From NCBI GenBank assembly GCA_029262475.1, contig JAJCZG010000022.1:1-55438 (forward strand): a DNA stretch of 55,438 bases. Direction: 5' to 3'. This DNA comes from Deltaproteobacteria bacterium. Its GTDB lineage: Bacteria; Desulfobacterota; GWC2-55-46; JAJCZF01. The notes beneath the pieces are model-generated. The model did not search any database and was not told the DNA's origin. It worked only from the letters and a program-made list of their open reading frames with translations. The position numbers were made by a program, and so were the translations under genes. Of this stretch, positions 2,156 through 40,283 are shown one piece after another (the stretch's first letter is position 1; each line of letters opens with the position of its first letter).

Positions 2156-4375
2156 TTACACAAAAAGTCCCGGGAGCGCGCCCTCCCAGGCATCTCTGAT
2201 AACCGAAAGTTCCAAATCGATAAATCCGTCGATAAAAAGGCGTTCGCCGCCAACTCTTCCAAGCTCGCTTAGGGTTACACCCTTCTCCGACGCTATAGCA
2301 TTTAATTTTTCAAGGTCGCCGGGGGCGACACTTACTATGATCCTGGACTGACTCTCTCCAAATAGCAGGGCATCGGCCCTCTCGCCCCCGGAGTGGCATT
2401 TAACGCTTACGCCTACTTCTCTCTCCGGCGCCAGACACGATTCCGCAAGGGCCACTGCAAGGCCGCCTTCCGAGAGATCATGGGCAGATTTAATTATACC
2501 AGCTTTTATAGCGTTTAAACAAGCTTCATCTACACTTTTGGCCTTCTTGAGGTCTATCCCCGGCGGCATTCCCCTCTCCAGGCCGTGCTTTACCTTGAGG
2601 TACTCGCTTCCGCCGAGTTCCGCCCCCATATCGCCAAGGAGAAGGATTACATCTCCCTCATCCTTGAACCAGATGGTGGTGTGGAGAGAAAGGTCTTCTA
2701 TAAGACCGACCATGCCGATGGTAGGCGTCGGGAAGATCGACTCCCCTGATGTCTCGTTATAAAAACTTACATTACCGCTTACGACCGGTATGCCGAGAGT
2801 GCGGCAAGCATTGCTTATCCCTTTTACCGACTCGCTGAACTGCCACATTACGTCCGCTCGTTCCGGGTTGCCGAAATTAAGGCAGTCGGTTACGGCAAGA
2901 GGTGTAGCGCCACTTACGGCAAGATTCCTCGCGGCCTCGGCAACGGCAATCTCTCCGCCCGTAAACGGGTCCAGATAACAGTACCTGGAGTTACAGTCCG
3001 TCGTAAGGGCTATAGCCTTATTCGTGCCCTTCACCCTCACGACCGCAGCGTCGGAACCGGGCCTTACGACCGTATCGGTCCGTACCATATGGTCGTACTG
3101 GCGGTAAATCCAGCGGCGGCTCGCGAGATTCGGCGAGGAGATCATCTCAAGCATTAAGGAGTTAAAATCCGAAGGGATATCAATAGCATTTAAATCAAGG
3201 GTGTTACGTTCGTCCTGCTCTTCCGGCCTCTTTATAGGGCGGTTATAGACCGGGGCAGCGTCGGTTAGCGAGTCTATCGGCATCTCGCCTTCGAGCGCGT
3301 CTCCGTTCATTAGCCTTAGCGTAGAGCCGTCGGTTACGCTCCCGATTACCGTTGCCTCAAGGTCCCATTTATGGACTATCTCCATCACCTTATCTTCGGT
3401 CCCGGCACTGACGACCATCAGCATCCTCTCCTGAGATTCCGAGAGCATCATCTCGTAGGCCGTCATCCCCTCCTCGCGACACGGTACCTTGCTTATATCA
3501 ATTTCTAGGCCGAGCCCGGCGCGAGAGGCCATCTCTACGCTCGACGAGGTAAGCCCGGCTGCGCCCATATCCTGAATGCCGATGATATAGTCGGTCTTAA
3601 AGACCTCAAGGCAAGCTTCGAGGAGTAATTTCTCCATAAACGGGTCGCCGACCTGAACGGTAGGGCGTCTCTCCTCGCCGCCCTCTCCGAAGACATCCGA
3701 GGCCATTACGGCTCCGTGTATGCCGTCCCTGCCAGTTCTAGACCCGACGTAAATCACCGGATTCCCTACGCCGGAGGCATATCCCTTAAATATCTTATCT
3801 GACTTTGCGATACCTGCGGTCATCGCGTTTACGAGGCAGTTTCCGTTATATGATTCGTTAAAATATACCTCTCCGCCTACCGTAGGGACGCCCATGCAGT
3901 TACCGTAACCGGCGATACCGGCTACTACGCCATCGAGCAGGAAAGGGGTCTTTTGGTGGTCGGCAGAGCCGAAGCGCAGCGAGTTCAGGTTAGCTATTGG
4001 CCTTGCGCCCATCGTAAAGACGTCCCTCATTATGCCGCCAACACCTGTGGCAGCGCCCTGGTACGGTTCTATAAAGGACGGGTGGTTGTGGCTCTCCATC
4101 TTAAATACACACGCGAGGCCGTCTCCGATAGCCACTACCCCGGCATTCTCCCCCGGCCCCTCGATAACATTTCGCCCGGTCGTAGGGAAATTCTTAAGAT
4201 GTACCCGTGAGGATTTATAAGAGCAGTGCTCGCTCCACATCACGGAGTAGATACCAAGCTCCAGCATATTAGGTTCACGCCCGAGGATATCCAGAATCTT
4301 CTGGTATTCGTCACCCTTGAGGCCGTGCTCCTCGATGACCTGATCAGTTATCTTCAATGCAGAGGACTCCATCAT
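2156..4375 (-). CDS. purL: Phosphoribosylformylglycinamidine synthase subunit PurL (small type)
   Basis: ATP-dependent FGAM synthase large subunit. With glutamine supplied by PurQ/PurS it converts FGAR to FGAM in purine synthesis. At 739 residues it is the Bacillus-type small PurL without a fused glutaminase. Family motifs include [16 protein letters not shown] near residue 40, then GPGENAG and [10 protein letters not shown]. The second half repeats the AIRS-like ATP-binding fold (for example [14 protein letters not shown]). purQ and purS are not in this window. Start: ATG codons at 4375 and 4372 lack a good ribosome binding site. An in-frame TTG at 4357 preceded by GGAG is an alternative and would still leave a complete protein. 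Confidence 0.96.
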
Positions 4376-4731
4376 AAGAGAGAAATTAACACAGAATAAT
4401 GAATTTTAGATTAGAAAGAAATTAAGAGATAAAAATAACCCAAAAACCATAAAAATTCAAGGCATATATCGATACGGGAAGGAAGTTTAACTTCGCTCAC
4501 CGGAAAAAAAGGCATAACGGTCTAAAATATTGGTTGGACGGGGTTTTTCATCCCAAGCAAGAGAGTCTCTCCTTCCTTCAATAAGAGTGAATAGAAGCGG
4601 AATTCCCTAATGATTTCGTTCTAACGGCATTATAAACGGATAGCTTGGATGTATTTAAAGTATCCTGCAACTATACCGATATAAAGTATGTTGCAATATT
4701 TATTTTTTTCATCGTTACGAAAGGAATAACT
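4376..4731. other. Divergent intergenic region between purL and the two-CW gene
   Basis: AT-rich region of about 350 bases separating two divergent genes. No ORF or RNA gene is convincing. On the minus strand TTGAAT (4455-4460) and TATTTT (4432-4437), 17 nt apart, could form a sigma-70 promoter for purL, but both boxes match consensus only partly. I saw no purine riboswitch-like core. Confidence 0.4.
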
Positions 4732-23143: not shown

Positions 23144-24319
23144 TCAAAACTCCACCTCGGTACTATAAAGAATATAAGGAGACTCTTCACTCAACCGGAG
23201 CGCCTCTTTAAGTTCTTCCTTCTTGAAGTTCGGCCAGTCATTATCTGTGGCGGCGCGGTAGAAGCGGTTATAGAATTCGTCGGGGTAGACGGTAACATCT
23301 ATTAAGAGCTTCTTACCTTTTGTACCACCAGCCGGGAGAGAGTACTTAAAATCAAAGCTCTCGCGAGGAAGGATTCTCGTATCATACTCCTCCCTTGAAA
23401 GATCAAGCGGAAGTTTGCGAACTATCCTCTCCACCTTCTCGCTGTCCTTAATAACCCCTCCGTCCCTGCCGGTGAGGCGACCCCTTACGACGACCATTGG
23501 GGTGATATATGTCGGAAAGTAATGTCCGGCACCGGTATTAGTAATCCTTAAGGTGACGGAGCCTTCGCGCTTAACCAGCTTGAAGTCGACGGCGCTCTTT
23601 GTCGTCTCAGGGTCGTGAATCCCTTTGAAGAGGTGGCGGCGCTCCGGCATATGGCAGTCCTGACAGGTTACTCCACGCTCTCCGTAAGTGCTCTCCCGCC
23701 ACTCGGTGAATGTATTTACGAGCGGCTTACCATTTAGGACAAAACCGTTATCCAGTTGGTGACACGCGGCACAAAACGTAGAGCTGGTGAAGAGCGGATT
23801 CATGACCGTACTATGAAGCCCCTCCAGTGCACCTGCTGCCGGTTTTACCGGGCCGTTTATGGTGCCTGAGCGCATATGACATGCCACGCACGTTACGCCG
23901 GCCTTCTGGAGTTCTTCGTTAAAGAAGGGGTTCTTCTCGTAGCCGCCACCCGTATCCGTATTAGCCCGGATCTCGCTTTGAATAAGTGCCGGAGCGTGAC
24001 ATTTGTAACAGCTATAAGCGAACTCCGGGTCAGTTAGCGGATGGAGCTGGGTCGAGAGGCCGGGGCTAAAACTTTTAGCATGAAGAGAAGCGCTCCACTC
24101 CCTCACCTTACCCGGGTGACAGGCCGAACACTCTCCCGACGTAAGCCCCGCCACTGAGTGCCCTACCATAACCGGCCTTGACCAGTGGGGGGCGCTCTCC
24201 GTAGCCCCATGCGTACTCATTTTATCTATCTCAATAGGAGCAGCTTCAGCACCGGCCAGAGTAGCGGCAGAGATAAGTAGAGCTAGAGAAAAAGCTATAT
24301 CCGGAAGACAACGTATCAA
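23144..24319 (-). CDS. Pentaheme c-type cytochrome (cytochrome c554-like)
   Basis: Five heme-attachment motifs in order: CSACH, CYKCH, CVACH, CAACH and CQDCH, all in the first two-thirds. The C-terminal part is a beta domain with TNTGAGHYFPT, a signature often found in multiheme cytochromes. A signal peptide (IAFSLALLISAATLAGA) directs periplasmic heme attachment. I chose the TTG at 24319 (391 residues) because AAGG lies 7 nt upstream and it starts just after the stop of the preceding cytochrome gene. The frame extends to 24391 only by overlapping that gene. Probable periplasmic electron carrier or reductase; the substrate is unknown. Confidence 0.88.
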   Translation of the reverse strand: MIRCLPDIAFSLALLISAATLAGAEAAPIEIDKMSTHGATESAPHWSRPVMVGHSVAGLTSGECSACHPGKVREWSASLHAKSFSPGLSTQLHPLTDPEFAYSCYKCHAPALIQSEIRANTDTGGGYEKNPFFNEELQKAGVTCVACHMRSGTINGPVKPAAGALEGLHSTVMNPLFTSSTFCAACHQLDNGFVLNGKPLVNTFTEWRESTYGERGVTCQDCHMPERRHLFKGIHDPETTKSAVDFKLVKREGSVTLRITNTGAGHYFPTYITPMVVVRGRLTGRDGGVIKDSEKVERIVRKLPLDLSREEYDTRILPRESFDFKYSLPAGGTKGKKLLIDVTVYPDEFYNRFYRAATDNDWPNFKKEELKEALRLSEESPYILYSTEVEF

Positions 24320-24323
24320 AGCA

Positions 24324-25223
24324 TTACCTTGAGCACGGGTTCGCAGCACACGGGTTTTTAGGCCTGGAGTTCGCATTGACGTATGCAGCAAGTGCCGTCA
24401 TCTCACGGCTATTCCAGGAAAGATAATCTCCCTTCATCGGGTTCTTCATACAAAAATTTATCATCTGGTCGAGTGTTACAAAATCTTTGGTCATGGAGAC
24501 ATATTTAGGATAGGGTTCGGAGTAAAGCCCCTGTCCGGACGGATGACACGTGGCACATGATAAACCCGAGGTGCCAAGCGAAGTGTCCTTCCAGAGCCTC
24601 TTGCCCATTGCTGAAAGTTTTGATTCTTCTACAAAAGGCTTGCTTCTTATGAGAATATTTTTCGTAGCACACGGGTTAGCGGCACACGGGTTAGCGGCAC
24701 ACGGGTTCGCAGCACACGGGTTCGCAGCACACGGGTTCGCAGCGCACGGGTTAGCGGCGCACGGGTTAGCGGCACACGGGTTCGCAGCACACGGGTTAGC
24801 GGCACACGGGTTAGCGGCGCACGGGTTAGCGGCGCACGGGTTAGCAGCGCACGGGTTGGCGGCGCACGGGTTAGCGGCACACGGGTTAGCGGCACACGGG
24901 TTAGCGGCGCACGGGTTAGCGGCGCACGGGTTAGCGGCGCACGGGTTAGCAGCGCACGGGTTGGCGGCGCACGGGTTGGCGGCGCACGGGTTAGCGGCGC
25001 ACGGGTTAGCAGCGCACGGGTTGGCGGCGCACGGGTTAGCGGCACACGGGTTAGCGGCGCACGGGTTAGCGGCGCACGGGTTAGCAGCGCACGGGTTGGC
25101 GGCGCACGGGTTGGCGGCGGGTTCTCCGGCGGGACGTTTCCCGGCTGCCGCTACACTACTAACCCCGTAGCCTAAAGAGATGAAGATAGCTAGCATAATT
25201 ATCGGCACTAATCTTCTAAACAT
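24324..25223 (-). CDS. Monoheme c-type cytochrome with 30 AANPC pentapeptide repeats
   Basis: 299 residues: signal peptide (about 1-27, ending VAAAG), then residues 36-185 made of 30 perfect Ala-Ala-Asn-Pro-Cys repeats, then a cytochrome c domain with CATCH (223-227) and a possible Met ligand region (KNPMKG). Two more NPC units close the protein. The CxxxxC spacing lacks His, so the repeats are not classical heme sites. AAGGAGG precedes the ATG. The pentaheme cytochrome follows within 5 nt, so both are probably cotranslated in one periplasmic electron-transfer unit. The role of the Cys tract is unknown. Confidence 0.88.
   Translation of the reverse strand: MFRRLVPIIMLAIFISLGYGVSSVAAAGKRPAGEPAANPCAANPCAANPCAANPCAANPCAANPCAANPCAANPCAANPCAANPCAANPCAANPCAANPCAANPCAANPCAANPCAANPCAANPCAANPCAANPCAANPCAANPCAANPCAANPCAANPCAANPCAANPCAANPCAANPCAANPCATKNILIRSKPFVEESKLSAMGKRLWKDTSLGTSGLSCATCHPSGQGLYSEPYPKYVSMTKDFVTLDQMINFCMKNPMKGDYLSWNSREMTALAAYVNANSRPKNPCAANPCSR
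24669..25118 (-). repeat. 30 tandem 15-bp repeats coding for AANPC
   Basis: 450 bp, exactly 30 units of 15 bp. Differences between units fall at third codon positions of the minus-strand frame (Ala GCC/GCT/GCG, Cys TGC/TGT), so the peptide is unchanged. Confidence 0.95.
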
Positions 25224-26396: not shown

Positions 26397-27326
26397 TCAC
26401 TCCTCTATACCGGCTATCCGCTTTAGCCCCGCTTCTCTTGCAAAGGCTAACGCCTCCTCGAACTCCGCCCTGGTGATGGGCCTCGATAACTCAGGAAAGT
26501 CAGGGTTATCGCCGGCCTTATGGCAAGGCCTGTACTGGTCCATGAGATTTACATAAGTACTCGGTGAAAGCTCTTTGGCGATGAACTCCATGACCTCCCT
26601 TGTCCCTGCAATAGACCCGGGCAAGACGAGATGACGCACCATAAGACCCCTTCTAGCTATACCGGCGGGGGTTAGTACGAGTTCCCCCACCTGGCGATGC
26701 ATTTCCATTACGGCGAGCTTAGCAACCTCGAAGTATCCGGGAGCGAAAGAGAGAGCCATCGCAGGCCAGTCGTCGCCGTACTTTATATCAGGCAGGTAGA
26801 TATCAAATATGCCGTCGAGTAATTTTATCGTCTCCGGAGAGTCGTAGCCGCCGGAGTTATAGACTAGAGGGACTTCGAGCCCACCTTCAATCGCCTTCGG
26901 AAGACTTTTGACAATCTGGGCTATTTGGTGAGTCGGGGTAACAAAATTGATATTATGGCAGCCCTTCTCCTGGAGAAGAAGCATGATGGAGGCGAGTTCG
27001 TCTGTGGATATCTCCCTGCCTGAGCCAAGCTGGCTTACCTCATAGTTCTGGCAATATGCGCATGTAAGGTTACATGAGGAGAAAAATATAGTACCACTCC
27101 CGCGTGACCCGGTAAGCGGCGGCTCCTCACCGAAGTGTGGCGCATAGGAGTCTATGACCGGGAGCGCAGCAACGCGGCAGATACCCGTAACCCCTCTCGT
27201 CCTGTCGACCATGCACCCCCTCGGGCATAGCGTGCACTTCTTCATGAGAGCCGTAAGGGTATCTATCCTCGATAAAAGCTCACCGTTCTCATAGAGCCTG
27301 AGATATGAAGGCCTAAAGGTTGACAT
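26397..27326 (-). CDS. Radical SAM protein, PflA-like (COG1313 type)
   Basis: Has the radical SAM 4Fe-4S motif CNLTCAYC near residue 85, preceded by KCTLCPRGCMVDR near the N-terminus, which may bind another metal or cluster. FFSSCNLTCAYCQNYE and the SAM-contact-like YNSGGYDSPE fit the group called putative pyruvate-formate-lyase activating enzymes. No glycyl-radical enzyme gene is adjacent, so the true substrate is unknown. ATG at 27326 chosen; a TTG at 27344 would add six residues. Neither has a clear ribosome binding site. Confidence 0.85.
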   Translation of the reverse strand: MSTFRPSYLRLYENGELLSRIDTLTALMKKCTLCPRGCMVDRTRGVTGICRVAALPVIDSYAPHFGEEPPLTGSRGSGTIFFSSCNLTCAYCQNYEVSQLGSGREISTDELASIMLLLQEKGCHNINFVTPTHQIAQIVKSLPKAIEGGLEVPLVYNSGGYDSPETIKLLDGIFDIYLPDIKYGDDWPAMALSFAPGYFEVAKLAVMEMHRQVGELVLTPAGIARRGLMVRHLVLPGSIAGTREVMEFIAKELSPSTYVNLMDQYRPCHKAGDNPDFPELSRPITRAEFEEALAFAREAGLKRIAGIEE

Positions 27327-27425
27327 GCGTAAAGGATAACACAAGTGGGGGTAAAAACAGCAATCTAAAAGACGGGTATTTATGTCAGATAAGGATGCGG
27401 GAGACTGAAATCATGCGGTGCAGGG

Positions 27426-39701: not shown

Positions 39702-40283
39702 CTATTCCTTTTCTTCCTTCTTTGGAGCGGCCTTCTTGACGGCAGGTTTCTTCTCAGAGCCCTCGGCGTCTTCTGCCTTCTTGGCGGCAGGCTTCTTCGG
39801 AGCGGCCTTCTTGGCCTTGGTGGCCTTCTTCTCAGAACCCTCGGCGTCTGCCTTCTTAGCAGCAGGCTTCTTCGGAGCGGCCTTCTTGGCGGCAGGCTTT
39901 TTATCCGGCTCTGCCTCTACCTCGGAGACGGAGTCAACCAGCTCTATGAGTGAAACAGGGGCGCAGTCGCCTGGGCGAACGCCAAGCTTTAATATCCTGG
40001 TATAACCGCCTTTTCTCTCCTCGTAACGCTTGGCAAGCTCGTTAAATATCTTTGTAACGACCGCTTTATTCCTGAGGAACCCCATAGCGCGCCTTCTTGC
40101 CGAGAGGCTGCCGTCTTTTCCAAGCGTAATCATACGCTCGGCATAACGTCTGAGCTCCTTTGCCTTCGGCGTGGTCGTCTTAATCCTCTCATGGTTCAAG
40201 AGGTCGCAGGTAAGGTTGGCCATCATGCAACGTAAATGTCCACTCGGCCTGTTAAATCTCTTATCGTCTCTATTGTGTCTCAC
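39702..40283 (-). CDS. rplQ: Ribosomal protein bL17 with Lys/Ala/Pro-rich tail
   Basis: Large-subunit protein near the exit tunnel. The L17 core (about 1-125) starts MRHNRDDKRFNRPSGHL. The remaining 65 or so residues are repeats of Lys-Lys-Pro-Ala-Ala-Lys-Lys and Ala-Pro-Lys-Lys type, like histone H1 tails and absent from the usual 120-residue L17. Starts at GTG with GGAG 8 nt upstream. 136 nt separate it from rpoA, unlike the tight spacing elsewhere in the cluster. Confidence 0.95.
   Translation of the reverse strand: MRHNRDDKRFNRPSGHLRCMMANLTCDLLNHERIKTTTPKAKELRRYAERMITLGKDGSLSARRRAMGFLRNKAVVTKIFNELAKRYEERKGGYTRILKLGVRPGDCAPVSLIELVDSVSEVEAEPDKKPAAKKAAPKKPAAKKADAEGSEKKATKAKKAAPKKPAAKKAEDAEGSEKKPAVKKAAPKKEEKE

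Follow-up and report, generated by a model that had tools for sequence, protein, structure and literature searches.

Why does a small exported cytochrome carry a Cys in every unit of a thirtyfold pentapeptide repeat? The question is raised by a gene (24324..25223, minus strand) within a 55,438-nucleotide contig of a Deltaproteobacteria bacterium; "the window" here means that whole stretch. The gene, whose ATG is preceded by the SD sequence AAGGAGG, encodes a 299 aa protein that consists, from N- to C-terminus, of a signal peptide (judged by eye), a short linker, 30 AANPC units, a heme domain with a CATCH attachment site, and the tail PKNPCAANPCSR. The signal peptide and the one CATCH bear out the initial annotation of a secreted monoheme cytochrome; however, the repeat does not begin the protein, as had been stated, but comes after the signal peptide and linker. 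The count of 30 AANPC repeats is correct for the perfect units, but two NPC units in the C-terminal tail (24327..24362, minus strand) had been missed, which brings the total to 32. Also beyond that earlier reading are the SoxA/TsdA type of the heme domain, an adjoining gene for a five-heme ("pentaheme") cytochrome, and a paralogue elsewhere in the genome. The boldest of our proposals, held at somewhat short of even confidence, is that the repeat belongs to a new secreted poly-thiol module, present in several phyla of uncultured bacteria, which occurs free, fused to SmbP-like or other cores, or flanking a His/Cys-ligated heme, and which may act as an extracytoplasmic reservoir of thiols, coupled to the pentaheme, in which soft metals or sulfur are kept.

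The AANPC array of the window gene

The array (24669..25118, minus strand; 24670-25119 according to TRF) covers residues 36-185. At the protein level all 30 units are without mismatch, while TRF describes the DNA as 15 bp x 30 with a 93% match. Variation is confined to 3 of the 15 unit positions (the third codon base for Ala1, Ala2, and Cys), and the five resulting unit types follow one another in the order CCDABACDACCDAABBACDABBEAAEEEBB. Unit-to-unit differences are thus 100% synonymous, exactly as the initial annotation had observed. That annotation also took the pattern as a sign of selection on the peptide. However, at least four substitutions, together with copying by duplication, suffice for the differences between units, and the chance that all four would fall at third positions by luck is ~(5/15)^4 = 0.01; the array is therefore weak evidence of selection when taken alone. 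The array looks like a recent expansion, and its exact length looks recent as well. Within it, the longest exact repeat is 83 bp, which ordinary reads of 150 bases could bridge, so that the array does not clearly exceed what short-read assembly can resolve; the copy number given here is the assembled one.

Two overlapping ORFs, 24550-25170 (plus strand) and 24647-25045 (minus strand), are mechanical by-products of the 15-bp repeat. The window contains a second tandem repeat, built of 75-bp and 15-bp units, at 39748-39903 within the ORF 39702-40283 (minus strand).

N-P-C tails in relatives

The search for NPC repeats beside CxxCH that had been recommended is productive: in more than 40 relatives, the same heme domain is flanked by NPC units at one end or at both, and since homologues in many genomes share the motif, its origin by chance is excluded. 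The 33 named relatives found are mostly from uncultured 'Deltaproteobacteria' of groundwater, with others in Nitrospinota, Nitrospirota, Tectomicrobia, and Zetaproteobacteria/Mariprofundaceae. The family is present in 31 of 59 related genomes (strong match in 27 of 59), and NPC flanks the domain, on one side or both, in nearly all of its members; the more remote SoxA-like relatives within the phylum lack NPC units altogether. Comparison of copy number, likewise suggested earlier, gives 0 to 35 NPC units per protein. The units of relatives are mostly six residues apart and fewer than in the window protein, and six-residue units are also found in the paralogue within the window genome (L009 5844-6449, 58% identical). 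Among 39 relatives, NPC accounts for 339 of the 374 tail Cys and N/H/Q-PC for 356, with Cys-Cys spacings of 6 (152), 3 (52), 5 (46), and 7 (22) residues. The initial annotation had pointed to a Cys at every fifth position; the conserved element, however, is N-P-C, the perfect five-residue period is peculiar to the window protein, and the window protein is an expanded extreme among its NPC-tailed relatives.

Several loci deserve separate mention. A 35-unit NPC cytochrome (L047 6735-8327) ends in a hydrophobic helix plus RRRNK, resembling a surface- or membrane-sorting tail, and the locus also encodes, upstream of it, another NPC cytochrome, a short one. In the window's own genome, contig C135 encodes a small secreted protein (L010 6528-6893, minus strand) whose helical, charged core is accompanied by three NPC units. 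Pattern matches in G008:C43 and G349 are short out-of-frame repeats and were rejected as NPC proteins.

In five ortholog pairs, dN/dS is 0.05-0.12 for the tails and 0.03-0.14 for the heme domain; a pair of free NPC peptides gives 0.15 across the whole protein. These ratios place the tails of relatives under purifying selection. Thus, the earlier claim that the peptide is selected finds its support in the relatives, the synonymous pattern of the array being weak by itself, and the accompanying claim that the tract is not just a recent expansion holds for the tails in relatives, although the array would appear to be a recent expansion as well. A neutral or selfish in-frame expansion of DNA, having no function of its own, would suit an array whose units are almost alike and more numerous than those of close relatives. 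However, the low tail ratios, the retention of NPC across several phyla, and the association with a partner gene (see below) make such an origin very improbable as an account of the tails, although it may explain the excess length in the window genome alone.

A different origin for regularly repeated Cys is offered by RiPP-like precursors, in which a maturase modifies the Cys of the tract. Captophorins, MNIO-made metallophores with EGKCG repeats, likewise have Cys in 5-residue repeats (PMC13097082); peptides with regularly repeated Cys also include fontiphorin and CefA, and the model NF038108 ('Cys-every-fifth RiPP' CefA) gives 42.4 bits on the 24669-25118 tract, above its curated cut-off of 30. 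Nevertheless, a precursor of the captophorin or CefA kind is the least credible of the explanations considered. Across the scanned relatives and free peptides, NF038108 matches only L030, at 18.5 bits and under the cut-off, so the match to the tract is probably compositional, arising through the five-residue period. MNIO maturation was rejected, since no PF05114 protein is found in the window genome and 58 relatives (59 genomes; controls positive) and since FonBC accepts no Pro in the repeat (PMC13097082), while NPC puts a Pro before each Cys. A radical SAM gene at 26397-27344 was considered as the maturase and rejected as well; neither a radical SAM gene nor any other maturase recurs in the neighborhoods of relatives. 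NPC proteins further differ from captophorins and CefA in having a heme domain between the tails and, in relatives, a spacing of mostly six. Because the CefA model reaches its cut-off on the tract, annotation pipelines may mislabel NPC proteins as RiPPs.

The heme domain and its pentaheme partner

The domain that follows the array (24354..24671, minus strand) is assigned to the SoxA/TsdA N-domain type by PF21342, AlphaFold, and Foldseek. PF21342 (SoxA-TsdA_cyt-c) gives 57.4 bits and E 1.5e-15 on the window cytochrome, well above the Pfam gathering score of 27, and an AlphaFold model from a 44-sequence alignment has a mean pLDDT of 91. The closest structures in Foldseek are SoxA (1h31; TMq 0.68, E 2.5e-4) and TsdA (TMq 0.63), and the family profile matches the SoxA (1h31) sequence at E 1.7e-15 and that of TsdA (4wq7) at 8e-7. 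In common with the SoxA heme-1 domain and the TsdA N-terminal domain are the fold, the CxxCH (here CATCH, residues 223-227; 24543..24557, minus strand), and the position of a heme-ligand Cys. This is Cys258 of MINFCM (24450..24452, minus strand), the predicted second heme ligand, which is kept in >90% of 44 homologues. In a profile comparison with chain positions counted, Cys258 aligns with TsdA Cys96 and the CATCH His with TsdA His53, which we take to be the ligands of heme 1 in TsdA.

The likeness has limits. The window cytochrome contains one domain and one heme, whereas SoxA and TsdA contain two, and to our knowledge neither SoxA nor TsdA has NPC tails. TIGR04484 (SoxA) gives 51.6 bits in a partial match (7-93 of 212), below its equivalog cut-off of 110. 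Met and Pro occupy the positions of R92 and S100, the substrate residues of TsdA, so that the substrate site is not kept; a thiosulfate dehydrogenase active site was accordingly rejected, given also the single CxxCH and the lack of a second heme domain. The heme domain is best described as stand-alone, with the N-terminal domain of SoxA, that of heme 1, as its closest counterpart and a catalytic domain further off. In G249, a gene for an NPC-tailed monoheme cytochrome (L182 823-1479, minus strand) has an in-frame TGA at the expected heme-ligand Cys; a Sec-ligated heme was set aside here, since no SelB scores above cut-off in that genome and a stop or an error is likelier.

Directly downstream of the NPC cytochrome gene in the window lies the gene for the pentaheme cytochrome (23144..24319, minus strand; 5 CxxCH), with a probable TTG start just after the NPC-gene stop. 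A homologue of this partner adjoins 31 of the 41 NPC-bearing loci with enough sequence, and it is present in 25 of 25 genomes with an NPC cytochrome but in 2 of the remaining 34; Fisher's test gives 1e-14 when the genomes are treated as independent, which they are not. The two exceptions with a pentaheme gene and no NPC cytochrome are G025, where it lies at a contig edge, and G055. Conversely, G015 and G035 have the heme domain with neither NPC nor pentaheme, and since both nest inside the NPC clade (94/79 support), their loss of NPC is secondary. Across 395 genomes surveyed in the phylum, in-frame NPC arrays occur only in pentaheme-bearing genomes (G011 and G022 among them); because of this, the association seems to follow the tails rather than the heme core.

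Besides its five CxxCH, the partner has five conserved non-CxxCH His (H42, H131, H191, H197, and H228), a match in number suggesting that its hemes are bis-His electron-transfer hemes. AlphaFold models it with moderate quality (pLDDT 74); 9wt9 is matched at E 6.5e-17 and, in Foldseek, 5ze8 at E 8.5e-12. Five CxxCH and a C-terminal beta domain are shared with ExtKL, MccSep, and the T. tepidum penta-heme c552, and by these likenesses the partner is placed near all three, in a superfamily that is already known. It is a member of neither named family as modeled, however: ExtKL (NF040886) gives 71.5 bits, far under the cut-off of 250, and the column of the MccSep Sec325 site is not conserved. In Geobacter, the ExtKL cluster includes a rhodanese and is tied to selenite/tellurite reduction (PMC5877670).

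The fold of the heme domain is, like the superfamily of the partner, known already. In contrast, no Pfam model fits the NPC module above cut-off, and the open-access literature searched holds nothing relevant on the NPC motif or on SoxA-like Cys-rich cytochromes. NPC tails and the five-heme partner form a conserved and apparently undescribed gene cassette, whose architecture, conservation, and tail-pentaheme link are established here at the level of sequence. The combination provides a searchable marker by which the cassette can be recognized.

Candidate roles of the tails: metals, sulfur, or a scaffold

The NPC module also occurs outside the heme protein. Free secreted NPC peptides are encoded beside the cytochrome at L016, L017, L018, L023, L035, L041, L042, L044, and L065, although none lies next to most members, the window included; the peptide that is a separate gene from the cytochrome in L016 is fused to it in L015. 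Beside a pentaheme gene, G057 encodes an NPC-SmbP-NPC protein (PF16785 29.9 bits, cut-off 29), and G249 encodes a divergently transcribed NPC protein whose core has no assigned family. The free peptides, the NPC-SmbP-NPC protein, and the fusion share one position in the operon. In L032, L062, and L147, NPC proteins have an SmbP-type helical His repeat as their core, and the L032 homologue matches the SmbP structure 3u8v at E 3.7e-10. SmbP, the small metal-binding protein of Nitrosomonas, is thus the core of some NPC proteins and absent from the window protein; we know of no NPC tails in SmbP itself.

These observations are consistent with the explanation that we favor, though tentatively: that the tails are multivalent thiols for soft metals or metalloids, with electrons served by both cytochromes. 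The exported single-heme cytochrome, with its SoxA/TsdA N-domain fold and predicted His/Cys heme, would bear flexible N-P-C tails whose exposed thiols reversibly capture ions of the Cu, Hg, As, or Se/Te class in the periplasm or at the cell surface. In this scheme, the His/Cys heme and the partner's five hemes, themselves probably bis-His, would donate electrons to the captured species or accept them from it or, alternatively, keep the tail thiols reduced. Tail length would set capacity, so the number of units could vary, up to 35, while N-P-C stays. The window protein would then be a high-capacity version, its 30-unit array taking the place of the NPC peptide for which many relatives have a distinct gene next to that of the cytochrome. 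Were the tails indeed redox-served thiols, they would give uncultured lineages a direct link between respiratory cytochromes and the extracytoplasmic capture of metal or sulfur, and the module might find use as a natural metal-binding polymer.

Metal binding had been among the roles first suggested for the Cys tract, and some of the gene context favors it as a prediction. MerT and MerR are encoded near L019, MerA (above cut-off) and an HMA/CopZ-like protein at L162, and an ArsM-like methyltransferase at L019, L031, and L162; the MerA, MerT, and ArsM cases are confined to a few lineages of one order. A PiT permease is found at four NPC loci, and a Crp-type regulator is close to nine. However, no metal-resistance gene is recognized in the window at ~17-30 kb or within 5 kb of most NPC loci, and the tails differ from metallothioneins in their 5-6-residue spacing and few CxxC, which counts against a metal role.

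Another possibility, which we regard as doubtful, is that the NPC thiols carry sulfane sulfur or selenium, holding a persulfide or S-sulfonate that the SoxA-like heme and the pentaheme oxidize or reduce. A single Cys of SoxY carries sulfur in this manner, and both the fold and the Cys-ligated heme are shared with the sulfur enzymes SoxA and TsdA. Rhodanese genes adjoin the pentaheme gene in L035, G051, G055, and G058, DsrE-like proteins (just under the Pfam cut-off) are encoded near three NPC loci, and the resemblance of the partner to ExtKL points the same way, given the rhodanese and the selenite/tellurite reduction of the Geobacter Ext cluster (PMC5877670). On the other hand, the heme domain lacks the TsdA residues R92 and S100 and is closer to SoxA heme 1 than to the catalytic domain, and SoxY was not found in the 59 genomes, in a search in which no control genome gave a match either. 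Thirty carrier thiols on one protein would, moreover, be without precedent as far as we know. The neighboring genes leave both metal and sulfur in play; what tips us toward metal is the fusion, between NPC tails, of SmbP, which is itself a metal-binding protein.

The thiols could instead be structural. Disulfide arrays, also raised initially, are disfavored in the form of a defined intramolecular ladder, since the number of tail Cys is even in 20 of 40 proteins and odd in the other 20. This lack of an even bias would fit random intermolecular links, by which tails and free NPC peptides could fix the cytochromes, for electron transfer, within a matrix outside the cell or in its envelope. Tails at both ends would make the protein a bivalent linker; furthermore, several members have a free peptide encoded alongside, units differ freely in number and spacing, core domains are exchangeable, and L047 has its C-terminal hydrophobic, arginine-rich anchor. 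Such a crosslinking scaffold is nonetheless unlikely, as it leaves the SmbP fusion and the metal genes unexplained, many members have only 3-6 units, and most, like the window protein, are without an adjacent free peptide.

Three of the rhodanese genes beside pentaheme genes contain an in-frame TGA within the active-site loop, and the two that were tested, when read through, match NF041203 (rhodanese-related (seleno)protein) above cut-off. Secreted rhodaneses with a TGA after the active-site Cys lie 3' of the pentaheme gene at L156 3888-4283, L159 4546-4968, and L161 (near 4100-4500). The genomes concerned have SelB, and the TGA rhodaneses are probable selenoproteins that ordinary ORF calling truncates.
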